A stretch of 37,611 bases of DNA from a virus. Where the stretch lies: positions 1 through 37,611 of IMG/VR virus record IMGVR_UViG_3300033156_000409; one strand, written 5' to 3'. The notes below the pieces were generated by a model, which worked only from the letters and a program-made list of their open reading frames with translations, did not search any database and was not told the DNA's origin. This document shows positions 16,228 to 35,588 of this stretch, piece after piece (position 1 is the stretch's first letter; the number at the start of each line of letters is the position of its first letter). The translations under genes and the position numbers were made by a program.

Positions 16228-16649
16228 GGATTTCTTGTTAATAATTGTATTTTCTTTTTTATTGCCACCGGTAAATCGGCGCTTACATCGTCAATATCAT
16301 ACCAGTATTTTATCACCTCAAGTATCAGCCTTTTCATATCAGGAGGCGTGGGATCATACCCGGCACTATATTCATAAATATAATTACCATTTGTATCTGT
16401 GCTTTCTGTAACATCGCCTATAACGGGACCGAAAGGTAATTCATATTCTTCAAGATCAAGTTCACTGGTAACTTTCAAAGAACGCTCGCTTACCGAACTG
16501 TCTGTCGCACGTTCGATATAACGTCGTGCATCACTGATCATATCCTCAAGATCATCATCATGACCAGAGCCCGTGATTTTTAATGCTGCTTTTACCTCAT
16601 CAATACTGACAGGTTCCGTTGTGATATCCGTAATTATTTCCACATTCAT
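16224..16649 (-). CDS. Head-tail connector, gp6-like
   Basis: The 141-aa product has EPVSIDEVKAALKITG, DDDLEDMISDARRYIERAT and a C-terminal LILEVIKYWYDI helix. This is the usual pattern of gp6-like connector proteins (all-alpha adaptor under the portal). Unlike most phages, the gene upstream is not the capsid but a glycosyltransferase, overlapping by 4 nt. Confidence 0.9.
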   Translation of the reverse strand: MNVEIITDITTEPVSIDEVKAALKITGSGHDDDLEDMISDARRYIERATDSSVSERSLKVTSELDLEEYELPFGPVIGDVTESTDTNGNYIYEYSAGYDPTPPDMKRLILEVIKYWYDIDDVSADLPVAIKKKIQLLTRNP

Positions 16650-18859
16650 AATTGCTCGATTATTGGTTCATATATTGGCTCATTAATAAGTTCCACGTAG
16701 CCTTTTTTTTGCAGATCATAAAAAGCCTTATGTGATATTTTTTTCACATCACCCTCCTTGAAAAGACGGCAATATTTTTTCAAAAAACGAACCTCAACTT
16801 TTCTATTGTTTCTCAAGACCTCAACCGCGGAAACAGTATTATTGACAACAAGTCTTTTTACAATATCTTCGGGTAACCCGATATCATGTATTGTCTTTTT
16901 TGTGGCCCTGAATGGCGGTTGTGGCTTGTTAAAATGCCTGCGTCTGTTAAGACTAACCGTGTTAGCTCCTGTCGTGGCAACACATGCAAATCGCTCATGA
17001 TCAACATATTTATCCGTGACATATCCGCTCATCCATTTATGAATGCCATTATTGCGATGCGAATCATTCGCTTTTCGCACTATTTCAGTTCGTATACCTA
17101 TATTAAATCCCGTTTTCCATCTCTTGCGAGTCATGAGATAATCAAATTCAATAAGTTTATTGTCGGGTATTGAATAATGCCACGCATAGCGTGAATCATA
17201 CCAGGGCTTGTCGCCGATAAGATCAACGGTTCGCTGTATCCTCGCGGGATGGGTGTAATCATCACTGTCATGCAGGATAAGAAGTGATCCCCGGGCTTTT
17301 TCTGCTATATACTTCCATTTCGTTGAAAGATCGGTTTTGCGTCCGCGGTTCATATAGATTATTCGTTCACATCCTGCATCACGTAATCTTTCTTTATATA
17401 AATTTATAAAATTTTTGCCTATATGCTGTTCCGCGGGACATTCCATGACAATATATTCCCAGGGTATTTTAGTTTCCTGCCGGCACAGGCTTTCCACGGA
17501 CAGCCAGAATATGCCGGCATTATTCCAGGTCGGGGTACCTACCGTTACCAGATTATTGCTGACTTTTTCGGCTTTGTCTTTCCGGATAATTTCAATCTTA
17601 GGAATACTGCCATGGTGATTCTTCCCTCCCTGGGTACCTGTAAGTACTTTATCTATCCATTTTACCTCAAGCTTTTTGCTTAAATATTCTATTACATGGA
17701 AGTCTCCTGCCGGACGTGCCTGCCATGGTACGGGCAGATGTTTAGAATGAAACAATATACCTATGCCTGATACCTGTCCTTTTTTAATGATCTTTCCGAA
17801 ATGCTTGTCATTTGGCGCCGTCCATGTGCTGATCCTTACTTTCCATATCAGCAACTGGTCTTCGTGATCTATTTCTACCACCATTTCTTCAACGGATGTA
17901 TCCCGCATGAGCATATCATCGTCGTCAAGATACATTACCCATCCTGTCTTGACATGTTTTCCCAAGTCATTAAGATGCAGATTCCATGGCAAAAATTTCC
18001 CTTCCTTCTTTGTAAGTCTGATGGCCTGCGGATAGTACGTACATTTTTCCTGGCATCCCACTATGTGATTTATCTTCATGGAACGGTCATTGAATTTGCC
18101 GCTACTCTTTATATAAGTCTGTGACAATATGCTTTCCTGGCATTTGGCAAAACTACGTGGCCGGCGGTAGGTCCTTGTAAGTATATTGATTACCGGATCA
18201 ATATTGCGTTCGCTGATCCAGTTGTGATCAGGGTCATACAGGCGCATGTTACCAACTTTCTTTAATCCTTTGCTCTTGAGCCTGGCATTTGTAACGGTAT
18301 ATTCGTGTTGTACCCACTTGCAATAACCTTTCGGAAGTTCTACCACCCCATCTGTAAATTTCCACAATTGACCATGCGAACCCTTGTATACCGGATAAAC
18401 AGGTTCTTTTTGACACAGGGTAGCAAACATGCTTATCCTGCGGTCATGATAAGGAGATAATGGCATTTCTTTCATATCAGGATATGATACCTTAATCGGT
18501 TGCACGTGTATGATGAAACTATCATATTTGTCTTTATTCTCTTTATATTTCTTTTGAATAGTTTCAATATAATCTTCCCTCATCCAGTCATCAAAATCAT
18601 GGCGGGTCTGAATATTGTACCCGTATTTTTTTGGCACAGTTCTGTATTGTTCAATACCATTAATGAAAGGGATGAAATCTATACCGATCCTTTCACGAAC
18701 ATAATCAACATCATCCTTTCGTATAAGCAGACCGAAGTCAAAGTCCTTGCATGTCTGCTTCTTGAGCTGTGGTATAAAGGTATCGAGCGCGATATCAATA
18801 TATTTATCCATTAATTCGCGGTTGTCAAACCACAATCTTGAAATAAGGAGATGTTTCAT
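16646..18859 (-). CDS. Multidomain glycosyltransferase with three GT-A-like modules
   Basis: The 737-aa product has three parts. Residues 1-210 resemble the putative rhamnosyltransferase family (LLISRLWFDNRELMDKY, LDTFIPQLKKQTCKDFDFG). Residues 222-420 form a GT2-like domain starting VINILTRTYRRPRSF, with acidic motif YLDDDDML (310-317). Residues 437-640 form another GT2-like domain (VTVGTPTWNNAGIFWL), with LHDSDDYTHP (529-538). The acidic motifs fit nucleotide-sugar and metal binding. The C-terminal 100 residues are basic. It lies inside the head module, coupled to the connector gene, so virion protein or tail glycan addition is likely; substrates are unknown. Confidence 0.85.
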   Translation of the reverse strand: MKHLLISRLWFDNRELMDKYIDIALDTFIPQLKKQTCKDFDFGLLIRKDDVDYVRERIGIDFIPFINGIEQYRTVPKKYGYNIQTRHDFDDWMREDYIETIQKKYKENKDKYDSFIIHVQPIKVSYPDMKEMPLSPYHDRRISMFATLCQKEPVYPVYKGSHGQLWKFTDGVVELPKGYCKWVQHEYTVTNARLKSKGLKKVGNMRLYDPDHNWISERNIDPVINILTRTYRRPRSFAKCQESILSQTYIKSSGKFNDRSMKINHIVGCQEKCTYYPQAIRLTKKEGKFLPWNLHLNDLGKHVKTGWVMYLDDDDMLMRDTSVEEMVVEIDHEDQLLIWKVRISTWTAPNDKHFGKIIKKGQVSGIGILFHSKHLPVPWQARPAGDFHVIEYLSKKLEVKWIDKVLTGTQGGKNHHGSIPKIEIIRKDKAEKVSNNLVTVGTPTWNNAGIFWLSVESLCRQETKIPWEYIVMECPAEQHIGKNFINLYKERLRDAGCERIIYMNRGRKTDLSTKWKYIAEKARGSLLILHDSDDYTHPARIQRTVDLIGDKPWYDSRYAWHYSIPDNKLIEFDYLMTRKRWKTGFNIGIRTEIVRKANDSHRNNGIHKWMSGYVTDKYVDHERFACVATTGANTVSLNRRRHFNKPQPPFRATKKTIHDIGLPEDIVKRLVVNNTVSAVEVLRNNRKVEVRFLKKYCRLFKEGDVKKISHKAFYDLQKKGYVELINEPIYEPIIEQL

Positions 18860-30085: not shown

Positions 30086-30130
30086 CTGTTTTTAATATAA
30101 TTCTATAAGTTGTTGATTATCAAATAAAAA

Positions 30131-30157
30131 GCAGGAGTTACTTTACTTCGCTCCTGC
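30131..30157 (-). terminator. Terminator of the tmRNA transcript
   Basis: GCAGGAG/CTCCTGC (7 bp, 13-nt loop) is followed on the minus strand by UUUUUAUUU. It follows the tag stop codon by about 7 nt and ends the RNA locus. In the mature RNA this stem may be the 3' end of the coding piece. Confidence 0.88.
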
Positions 30158-30164
30158 TAATCAG

Positions 30165-30215
30165 TTAAGCTGCTGTTTCAAGCAGATTTACCTCGTGCAA
30201 GTTTATCACCTTGCC
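30165..30215 (-). other. Proteolysis-tag reading frame of the tmRNA
   Basis: An open frame ending at TAA (30165-30167) can be read from GGC at 30215 as GKVINLHEVNLLETAA. Its last codons, GCA GCT TAA, are those of the classical ssrA tag, although ETAA replaces ALAA. The resume codon is not certain; it may be further downstream after pseudoknot 1, giving a shorter tag such as NLLETAA. Confidence 0.65.
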
Positions 30216-30538
30216 AGTTAATATAAATCAATGATTCTCCCTGTATTGTACTTATTACCTGTCGAAACCAGGTCAGCCCCGTGATCCCGGGGTTGTATAA
30301 CGTGATCAGGGCCCCGGGAAGCATCACGTTGCTACTTGCAAGTTGCTATTTGCAAGTTACACTACTTTTAAAATGACGACCCTTTCGGGAAATCGTGGAG
30401 CTGGCGGGAATCGAACCCGCGTCCAGATAATTTTCCTTTACAGATCAATAAATCAAAGAAACTCTTTTTTTAAAGGAGCCGTTCATGGCAAACACGACAG
30501 GATAGCTTCCTATCCATCTCTGGCCGAACAGCCCCTTT

Positions 30539-30568
30539 CAAACCCAATTAACCTATGAAAAAACCCAA
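30539..30568 (-). promoter_or_regulatory. Putative tmRNA promoter
   Basis: TTG (30568-30566), 19 bases and TGGGTTTG (30546-30539) match TTG-N19-TAnnTTTG except for one base. Transcription would start near 30535, exactly at a GGGGCTG sequence. The 36-bp repeats end 12 bp upstream of the TTG. Confidence 0.6.
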
Positions 30569-30579
30569 TCAATCTATTT

Positions 30580-30867
30580 GATTTTCTTTAAGCGAATGAT
30601 TCACTTATAAAGTTTGGTTTTCTTACCTCCTTTGATTCATTTGCATTTATTGGTTTTCTTAGTATTACTGATTCATTTAATAAACATGGTTTTCTTAGTA
30701 TTACTGATTCATTTAATAAACATGGTTTTCTTGAAGTAAATGATTCACTTATGTTTAATGGTTTTCTTCAAGTTTCTGATTCATTTTGACTTAATGGTTT
30801 TCTTGAACTTTTTGATTCACTTACAAATTTTGGGTTTCTTAAATGTCGTGATTCATTTAAATAATTA
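30580..30867. repeat. Eight 36-bp units with two conserved blocks
   Basis: GGTTTTCTT starts at 30580 (GATTTTCTT), 30616, 30652, 30688, 30724, 30760, 30796 and 30832 (GGGTTTCTT). TGATTCA starts at 30597, 30633, 30669, 30705, 30741, 30777, 30813 and 30849. Both have an exact 36-bp period. The blocks are near invariant, while the 8-bp and 12-bp spacers vary except in units 3 and 4, which are identical. TGATTCA is nearly palindromic. No hairpin forms on either strand. This is the pattern of an iteron-like binding array, placed upstream of the tmRNA promoter. Confidence 0.93.
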
Positions 30868-31551: not shown

Positions 31552-31818
31552 TTAAATATTTTTTTTACGTATCCCGGATTTGTCTTCCATCCTGAACAGC
31601 ATGAATATACCGGTGACAGCATCAATCAGAGCCAGGATAGCCTCCCACCCGTTCATGGCAAGCAACTGAAATTGCTGCTGGCCTTCAATATCAAGATTTA
31701 TTACTCCTATACTGAAAAGTATAGTTATAATGATAGGAATCAAACTACCTATTGTCGATAACAGGTTTCTTGTTCTTTTAGCGGGGTCATAGACCGCTCT
31801 TGGAATTTTAATCATCAT
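31552..31818 (-). CDS. Holin-like two-pass membrane protein
   Basis: The 88-aa product has a basic N-terminus (PAKRTRNLL), transmembrane helices at about 20-41 and 58-76 separated by an acidic loop, and a charged basic tail (RKKNI). Length and topology are those of small phage holins. The start overlaps the caspase-like gene by 11 nt. The separate lysis enzyme and one-pass membrane protein lie at 7433-8181, so this would be a second lysis locus. Confidence 0.7.
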   Translation of the reverse strand: MMIKIPRAVYDPAKRTRNLLSTIGSLIPIIITILFSIGVINLDIEGQQQFQLLAMNGWEAILALIDAVTGIFMLFRMEDKSGIRKKNI

Positions 31819-32662
31819 TTCTATTTTTTATATTTGTAAATACCGGTTTATTAATTAATTCAATTCCTCCCCATATTTGCGGTACCTGGCTATAATGTGC
31901 GATATCATTGATCGCATATTTCGTACTCGAGAGCCATAGATCACAACCACGGTTTTTTACAAAAGTCTCGATCCAGAAATAAGTAAAAGCCCCGCGGTAT
32001 TTACCGGCGATATAAGCATCGGCCGCCGTCTGTCCTTCACCGCAAGCCGCAAACTGGATAATATTACTATGATCAAATACTCTCACGAAGGAACTTTTTT
32101 TCCTGATGCCCGGCGGTATAATATCGGTTTCAGTAAACCGTGGTTTAATATACAGGTCTTTCCTGAGAAAGCTTGTATATTTATTCTTTGATATCGCGCC
32201 GCCGGAGAAACATGTATCAAATGCGAGAGTAATTTTTGATTTGTAAGGAATATTTGTCAATATTTCTCTTAATTCAAAATCCCACAATGGCCCGTCATGC
32301 AAGTATAATGCTTCGCTATAACCATCAGCTTCAATTCCCTGTTTATCGAATCCCCTGGTACCATGACTGCTGATGTGGATAAAAAGATCATCACCGGGTG
32401 TGAGTTTATTTTTAAATTTTAAAATCCATTCGGTAAAGATTTTTCTTGTTACCTGCCTGTCTTTGAATTTATAAATCACGAATTCAGGAAAATAGGTATT
32501 AAGCCATTTTTCAACCATCAACTGGTCATTAAGACATCCCCGGAGATTATTAACACTTCCCGGGTAATCGTTAATTGCAAAAAGAAGCGCTGTCTTACCG
32601 CCATACGGCAATTCCTGGGGTAATGGGTTGCCGCCAAATATTTTTTTCAGACACATATCCAT
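31808..32662 (-). CDS. Caspase-like cysteine protease (peptidase C14/metacaspase family)
   Basis: The product is 284 aa from ATG 32662 (MDMCLKK). TTG 32674 would lie in the promoter-like site. The p20-like domain starts KTALLFAINDYPGSVNNLRG, with the catalytic His100 in HISSHGTRG and catalytic Cys151 in AFDTCFSGG, exactly as in metacaspases. The p10-like part contains FAACGEGQTAADAY and YRGAFTYFWIETF. Both dyad residues are present, so it should be active after Arg, Lys or Asp depending on subfamily. Bacterial caspase-like proteases act in regulated cell death and defence. Next to a holin-like protein, a role in lysis, maturation or counter-defence is conceivable. Confidence 0.9.
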   Translation of the reverse strand: MDMCLKKIFGGNPLPQELPYGGKTALLFAINDYPGSVNNLRGCLNDQLMVEKWLNTYFPEFVIYKFKDRQVTRKIFTEWILKFKNKLTPGDDLFIHISSHGTRGFDKQGIEADGYSEALYLHDGPLWDFELREILTNIPYKSKITLAFDTCFSGGAISKNKYTSFLRKDLYIKPRFTETDIIPPGIRKKSSFVRVFDHSNIIQFAACGEGQTAADAYIAGKYRGAFTYFWIETFVKNRGCDLWLSSTKYAINDIAHYSQVPQIWGGIELINKPVFTNIKNRNDD

Positions 32663-32676
32663 TTGGATTTTCAATA

Positions 32677-34792: not shown

Positions 34793-34796
<4 letters not shown>

Positions 34797-35221
34797 TTCA
34801 ATTTTTCTTTTATTATTTTATTTAATTCCTGAATTTCCAAACGAATAGTCCTGTCTGAAAACATGAAATTTTCAATCATCTTTATTCCATGCAATACAGT
34901 TGCATGATCTTTATCGAAAAATTTACCCAGACTATAAAGTGACAACTTGGTATATTGTTTGCCTAAATAGAAACTTAATTGTCTGGCAAATACAACTTCC
35001 TGTTTGCGTGTTTTCTTTTTCATGGTTTCAACAGGAATATCGTAATATAAAGAAACAGTTCCAATGATATATTCATAAGGCAAAACACGTTGCACCCGGT
35101 GATCGTCTCCTATCCTGAAACCAGCAATAAATCCTTTCATTATAAGAAATACCTCCCCGGATTTGGCATCCGGGTAATTATTTAAAATATATTCTTCTGC
35201 ATATTGTTCCGCTGTTTTCAT
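34793..35221 (-). CDS. DnaA domain IV-like origin-binding protein, no ATPase domain
   Basis: The product is 142 aa from ATG 35221 (MKTAEQYAEEY). Residues of about 55-120 match the DnaA C-terminal DNA-binding domain: TRKQEVVFARQLSFYLGK is the helix with the conserved R-x-x-x-x-Y/F pattern and KDHATVLHGIKMI (104-116) is the DnaA signature that contacts the DnaA box. There is no Walker A or AAA+ domain. It may mark the phage origin and recruit the DnaB helicase encoded 381 bp downstream in genome coordinates, or compete with host DnaA. Confidence 0.88.
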
Positions 35222-35231
35222 GATAATAAAT

Positions 35232-35588
35232 TTAAAATAGTTTTTCTTGTGCCTCAATTCCTTCCCGTAACCATCTTAGAAATTTAGTCTTATATCCTGG
35301 TTTATTTTTACTGAAAATTTTCTGAAATTCCAGATGCTTCGATTGGATCCAGCGGATATAATGAATCATTCCCCCCGTTCCTTTTGGATGGGCTTTTAGG
35401 AATTCGATAAAATAAGGATTTAAATTTCCCGGGTAATCATCTCCATGCCTTACAATTAATATATTTTCATTCCTGTTCCCGTAACACATGGAATAATTAG
35501 TGTCGGCCTGTTCATAATCATTAAATTGATATATACTGCCTTCACTGTTTACTATTGGTTTTCCATCAATCTCAATCGTGAAATACAT
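35232..35588 (-). CDS. Hypothetical 118-aa protein
   Basis: It has an N-terminal beta region (MYFTIEIDGKPIVNSEGS, NENILIVRHGDDYPG) and a basic helical C-terminus (KHLEFQKIFSKNKPG, FLRWLREGIEAQEKLF). No family is recognised. It lies between the helicase and the DnaA-like gene, so a replication accessory role is likely by context. Confidence 0.72.
   Translation of the reverse strand: MYFTIEIDGKPIVNSEGSIYQFNDYEQADTNYSMCYGNRNENILIVRHGDDYPGNLNPYFIEFLKAHPKGTGGMIHYIRWIQSKHLEFQKIFSKNKPGYKTKFLRWLREGIEAQEKLF

Follow-up and report, generated by a model that had tools for sequence, protein, structure and literature searches.

A circularly permuted tmRNA gene in a virus contig, and a lineage of phage permuted tmRNAs with glycine-initial tags

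Anatomy of the locus

The DNA analysed here is a complete virus record (IMGVR_UViG_3300033156_000409; 37,611 nucleotides, hereafter the window), a 37.6-kb contig with terminase, portal, protease and capsid genes. Directly upstream of its small terminase gene (terS), on the minus strand, lies a phage-borne, circularly permuted (two-piece) tmRNA gene (ssrA). In a covariance-model search, the Rfam model RF04321 (tmRNA_permuted) matched positions 30455-30165 of the minus strand with 83.5 bits (E 1e-14) against a gathering cut-off of 47 bits, and ARAGORN likewise called a permuted tmRNA. Both results bear out the central claim of an earlier, sequence-only reading of the window, which had proposed such searches; the alpha, beta and cyanobacterial clade models (RF01849, RF01850 and RF01851) gave no window match at their gathering thresholds, and a prophage relative of the gene, L119, reached 36.4 bits with the beta model, whose cut-off is 84.

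It is the order of the parts, listed in Table 1, that establishes the form of the gene. In the direction of transcription, the T arm and the 3' half of the acceptor stem (GGACGCGGGTTCGATTCCCGCCAGCTCCA, GGAC...CTCCA, 30424-30396) precede the 5' half, which begins with GGGGCTGA at 30280. The sequence-only reading had described this inversion and located the canonical 5' end correctly (GGGGCTGACCTGGTTTCGAC, 30280-30261), as well as the order in which the canonical 3' end, GGACGCGGGTTCGATTCCCGCCAGCTCC, is met; the latter starts at 30424 rather than at 30423. Its acceptor stem of seven base pairs with a G-U at pair 3, visible in the sequence and in the RF04321 alignment, and its eight-base-pair P2 also hold. 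CCA is not encoded, the bases after the discriminator A being CGA. The intervening sequence is strongly folded (z = -3.55; 0 of 200 shuffles were as stable), and when those of the relatives L141 and L119 were folded too, the closing hairpin, which adjoins the mature 5' end, proved common to the window and L141.

Table 1. Parts of the permuted tmRNA gene, with window coordinates
Feature	Position	Strand	Basis or remark
Acceptor (3') piece	30393..30460	-	RF04321 match from 30455; L141 identity from ~30460; 5' boundary approximate
Helix a, acceptor-piece strand	30450..30455	-	Pairs with 30237-30232; cognate duplex prediction
Helix b, acceptor-piece strand	30439..30444	-	Pairs with 30245-30240; cognate duplex prediction
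P2, acceptor-piece strand ATTATCTG	30424..30431	-	8 bp with 30261-30254; compensatory changes
T arm GCGGG-TTCGATT-CCCGC	30404..30420	-	Sequence; RF04321 alignment
Acceptor stem 3' strand CAGCTCC and discriminator A	30396..30403	-	Sequence
Intervening sequence, predicted to be excised (115 nt)	30281..30395	-	Fold compared with shuffles
Acceptor stem 5' strand GGGGCTG	30274..30280	-	G3-U70 with CAGCTCC; sequence, RF04321
Predicted RNase P site	30281/30280	-	
Coding (5') piece: D-arm analogue, P2/b/a strands, tag frame, terminator	30122..30280	-	Sequence, RF04321, duplex prediction
Tag reading frame GKVINLHEVNLLETAA-stop	30165..30215	-	Frame as in GKVI relatives
Intrinsic terminator-like hairpin and T-run	30122..30158	-	8 bp stem, 13-nt loop; sequence, fold

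As for the limits of the gene, the terminator that had been proposed is present (AGCAGGAG at 30158-30151 with CTCCTGCT at 30137-30130, then T5AT3), and is missing from our scanner's list because its loop exceeds the scanner's limit. A hairpin and T-run also follow the tag in L141, L145, L149, L142 and L154. A promoter suggested at 30568-30539 is not supported: in a scan that covered sigma-70-like sites, none was found there, and the region, with 4 against 4.2 in shuffles, shows no excess. The upper limit of 30535 was also too wide, since ~30470-30535 belongs to a separate stable hairpin that is missing from L141. This hairpin (30476-30540, -27 kcal/mol, z -3.5), which begins GGGGCTG and lies upstream of the acceptor piece, gives rise to a sub-threshold match to the one-piece model RF00023.

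The gene is also carried by a near-identical contig, L003, and by L141, where a copy with 90% DNA identity and an intact frame stands before a divergent terS (43% protein identity), so that related phages seem to carry the gene as a unit. It was not found in the sequence examined of relatives whose large terminase (TerL) is 73-78% identical, and is thus dispensable there.

Several other features of the window were recorded. Just upstream of the tmRNA gene, the non-coding region 30590-30860 holds eight or more 36-bp units in head-to-tail order, and in each of them AAGAAAACCA and AARTGAATCA are spaced 18 bp apart; from its sequence, this array looks like a set of protein-binding sites or iterons. 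A gene at 31808-32674 encodes a caspase-like peptidase domain (Pfam Peptidase_C14, E 2e-12; PADLOC caspase model, E 2.5e-9). Inside the structural gene block, 16646-18859 encodes a 737-aa protein with a glycosyltransferase family 2 domain, and 34793-35257, which adjoins replication genes, a small protein with a DnaA C-terminal DNA-binding domain (Pfam E 1e-20).

Pairing between the two pieces, and the tag

A MAFFT alignment of the joined strands had to be dropped because it shifted the helices against each other, and we therefore compared cognate with non-cognate pieces by alignment-free tests. Across 16 members, duplexes between cognate acceptor and coding pieces averaged -17.2 kcal/mol, compared with -11.9 when partners were swapped, and the cognate sum was reached by none of 100,000 permutations. 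In 13 of 14 cognate combinations, but in only 19 of 182 non-cognate ones, the P2 core is complete with its five pairs, and each of these five positions shows two-sided, compensatory changes. The covariation in P2 that the sequence-only reading had suggested looking for in relatives is thus there, and pairing between the pieces is established. Duplex prediction gives the same three-helix layout (P2, b and a) for most of the 16 members.

A pseudoknot, PK1, usually lies between P2 and the tag in tmRNAs. The window gene probably lacks one: the four hairpin pairs that RF04321 places between P2 and the tag are unformed in the alignment. The distance from helix a to the resume codon is 16 nt in the window and ~9-17 nt in the family described below, which therefore leaves no room for PK1, an absence deduced from length and pairing rather than from a pseudoknot search. 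In L119 and L148, a few dozen bases at most separate the start of the acceptor piece from a tRNA gene, which leaves little room for pseudoknots there as well. RF04321 itself models the tRNA domain and does not require PK1 (PMC11915505).

While ARAGORN recognized the gene, the tag that it reports, DNQQLIELY, is wrong and comes from a false frame farther downstream; several relatives with glycine-initial tags are misread by the program. The corrected tag is GKVINLHEVNLLETAA followed by a stop, with the resume codon GGC at 30215 and TTAACT just before it, a frame that we could fix because ARAGORN reads GKVIQMNNAPVRLAA as the tag of L119, the prophage copy in genome G256. The frame ends GCA GCT TAA at 30165, as the sequence-only reading had it. 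Among the GKVI relatives, pairwise comparison of the first four codons gives 64 synonymous and 16 non-synonymous differences, with the greatest variation at third positions. This excess establishes selection on the tag and means that it is, or recently was, translated; as judged from codon comparisons, the glycine-family tag is conserved at the amino-acid level. Most family tags end in AA, often as RLAA, AMAA or KLAA, the usual ending being LAA or MAA, whereas the window tag ends in ETAA.

A phage lineage with glycine-initial tags, and its relatives

By pattern scans of viral contigs and parsing, we assembled a set of permuted tmRNAs that form a phage lineage of their own, with tags that start with glycine (GKVI...LAA, G[EAKT]QVE[ML]AMAA and GNN...), with more than 60 unique 5' pieces, 49 of the GxQVE type. 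The pattern TAACTGGNAARGTNATHMA alone returned mostly chance matches, and we retained a match only if an acceptor 5' end lay upstream of it. All 10 GKVI members and 48 of 49 GxQVE members are permuted, the sole exception being cut by a contig end. The glycine-tag pattern occurred in 0 of 249 Pseudomonadota genomes, and when the gene was compared by blastn with 50,697 phage records, the matches were limited to the T-arm string in unrelated tmRNAs of phages. The lineage differs in several respects from the 89 other permuted phage tmRNAs found in the same scans. The resume codon lies 55-75 nt from the 5' end (55-65 in the GKVI and GxQVE types), compared with a median of 86 nt in the others, of which 72 have alanine-initial tags; CCA is mostly unencoded, as against encoded in 71 of the 89; and most members have TTTTGAC instead of TTTCGAC, which the window gene itself retains.

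Some unusual permuted genes also came to light. Those of L138, L143, L147, L150 and L153 have predicted tags of 36-37 residues, against about 10 usually, and a tRNA-Ala gene sits within the intervening sequence of two permuted phage tmRNAs, in the L311 3590-3774 region and at L153 4397-4717.

Among bacteria, two-piece tmRNAs are on record for three lineages; the phage examples described come mainly from marine phages that infect Proteobacteria and cyanobacteria. RF04321 merges the alpha, beta and cyanobacterial forms (PMC11915505). With these the window gene shares the order 3' half, intervening sequence, 5' half, along with the acceptor stem, T arm, three-part P2 and tag; it differs in lacking the model's hairpin pairs between P2 and tag, in resuming on glycine rather than alanine and in leaving CCA unencoded. 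Phage-encoded permuted tmRNAs, as in the window, are found in methylophage Melnitz and the pelagimyophages, and 53 of 133 unique phage tmRNA structures are reported to be two-piece (PMC9004378); in contrast to ours, those of Melnitz and the pelagimyophages are of alphaproteobacterial type, from marine phages of Proteobacteria, and linked to a glutamine riboswitch (PMC9004378). Isolated Bacteroidota phages can also carry a tmRNA gene, as do Cellulophaga phages Calle_1, phi38:1 and phi40:1 (PMC8776804), but in the standard one-piece form (RF00023). In the two Cellulophaga phage records L157 and L158 we found one-piece tmRNAs; in phi40:1 the gene carries no annotation, and a hypothetical gene on the opposite strand overlaps it.

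A further known parallel is the annotated ssrA of crAss-like phage cr50_1 (MT774375.1, 39374-39869), which is permuted (RF04321, 60.3 bits), with 59 nt from 5' end to resume codon, unencoded CCA and a glycine-initial tag, GNNFVTDYTAIGA. The phage is unrelated, the tag is another one, and the record is silent on permutation. A RAGATH-22 RNA (155.6 bits) lies a few hundred bases upstream of this tmRNA (L159, 363-529). The remark in the sequence-only reading that no permuted tmRNA was known in a Bacteroidota phage thus needs qualifying, given both cr50_1 and the prophage copy L119 in a Flavobacteriales genome. Two-piece phage tmRNAs are already known, and the window gene adds a variant lineage. 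As far as we searched, in the open PMC literature, this glycine-tag, PK1-less lineage in Bacteroidota phages is undescribed: no report of the family was found there, one member is annotated as plain ssrA in GenBank, and an earlier listing in a tmRNA database supplement (PMC11915505) is possible.

The best TerL matches of the window are flavobacterial phages and prophages in Bacteroidota genomes, which supports a Bacteroidota host for the window; the only other member with a supported host phylum is L119, through its place in a Flavobacteriales genome. A contig binned as Pseudooceanicola, L026, has a TerL 49% identical to this Bacteroidota-phage type and is possibly a mis-binned phage contig. 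Only 1 of 395 Bacteroidota genomes exceeded the RF04321 cut-off, namely G256, of the same order as a Flavobacteriaceae genome (Flavobacteriales). Its copy, L119, is next to tRNA genes; the region around it is prophage-like and encodes a DNA polymerase, a helicase and a tyrosine recombinase, functions read from translations rather than from a family search. In 31 Bacteroidota genomes RF04321 scored weakly (27-39 bits); these matches were considered as possible permuted genes and rejected, the best ones checked being one-piece tmRNAs. G256 also has its own one-piece tmRNA, with the tag GEDNYALAA, and 40 of 41 Bacteroidota genomes keep such a gene, which makes it unlikely that the phage gene replaces a host ssrA, as had been suggested.

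The host one-piece tmRNAs resemble the phage lineage in that many resume on the glycine codon GGC after TAA(C/A)T. TTTTGA or ATTTGA occurs in 7 of 12 of these glycine-codon host genes, 18 of 21 glycine-type and 1 of 72 alanine-type phage genes. They differ in their one-piece order, in scoring over the RF00023 cut-off, in tags of GENNYALAA and similar, which have little in common with the phage tags beyond the initial glycine and final alanines, and in the 90-103 nt between 5' end and tag. The glycine codon, TTTTGAC and the unencoded CCA suggest that the family descends from, or has adapted to, Bacteroidota. Overall identity does not decide descent, since in the tRNA-like part it is 0.838 to host glycine-type and 0.850 to alanine-type phage tmRNAs, nearest neighbours being mostly alanine-type.

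Proposed role in infection

The anatomy of the gene supports ordinary trans-translation, from which we infer processing, charging, ribosome rescue, a benefit and a role in infection. The best explanation, to which we assign a probability of roughly 85%, is that the phage permuted tmRNA is processed and charged, and tags proteins beside the host one-piece tmRNA during infection. The permuted gene would yield a single precursor transcript, cut by host RNase P before 30280; with 3' maturation and addition of CCA after 30396 by the host CCA-adding enzyme, the intervening sequence would be lost, leaving an acceptor RNA of ~65-70 nt and a coding RNA of ~150 nt, joined by helices P2, b and a together with the acceptor stem. 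The two-piece tmRNA would be charged with alanine by host AlaRS via G3-U70, and host SmpB would bring it to ribosomes stalled on broken mRNA; the window has no SmpB gene, as expected if the host's is used. Translation would resume at GGC, appending the phage-specific tag. Because hosts keep their one-piece tmRNA, the phage RNA would not take its place but would act in addition to it or in competition with it. Ribosomes would stay free despite damage to mRNA, and abandoned proteins would receive a different tag. How efficiently the window RNA would tag is uncertain because PK1 is missing.

A conventional one-piece tmRNA, running from GGGGCTG at 30535 to 30393, has a negligible chance of being the correct description. 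GGGGCTG can pair with CAGCTCC, and RF00023 scores 42.9 bits over 30535-30393, but this is under that model's cut-off of 47, and such a gene would be without a real 5' half: the TGG-TTYGAC motif is absent after 30535, where the sequence instead forms the hairpin missing from L141, and when a shorter stretch is aligned to RF00023, hardly any helix is paired. Nor does a decaying or passenger copy, acquired by recombination (for example as a former integration site) and now functionless, account well for the data, even though close TerL relatives are without the gene and no promoter is visible. All structural elements are intact, the gene persists in L141 with its frame, the family shows compensatory changes and a tag conserved at the amino-acid level, and the hosts offer no permuted source gene, the sole one over the cut-off being in a prophage; we consider it very improbable.

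Less remote, yet still unlikely, is a tmRNA-like competitor that would bind SmpB and AlaRS, enter ribosomes and mainly displace the host tmRNA, giving abandoned proteins a tag unrecognised by host proteases, that is, interference rather than rescue. The tags differ almost completely from the host GENNYALAA and GEDNYALAA, that of the window does not end in LAA, and a tag-less phage tmRNA (DS6A) is reported to inhibit the endogenous tmRNA (PMC11915505). Against this, most family tags do end like an ordinary degron, and a pure decoy would not need a conserved tag frame. Tagging alongside the host tmRNA is the reading that we prefer. A bolder reading, which we put forward tentatively and rate as rather unlikely, is that the glycine-tag family represents an additional, independent permutation of a Bacteroidota-type tmRNA inside phages. 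The task of PK1 in positioning the resume codon would then fall to the stacked helices P2, b and a, and the tag, conserved and unlike that of the host, would redirect abandoned proteins for the phage.

The window gene belongs to a recurring phage lineage, at least partly of Bacteroidota phages, whose architecture is pared down and whose tags are conserved and confined to phages, and at least one lysogen has a phage permuted tmRNA beside the one-piece tmRNA of its host. Why phages carry a ribosome-rescue RNA of their own, and whether an extended P2 makes PK1 dispensable, are questions that can now be put to the test.
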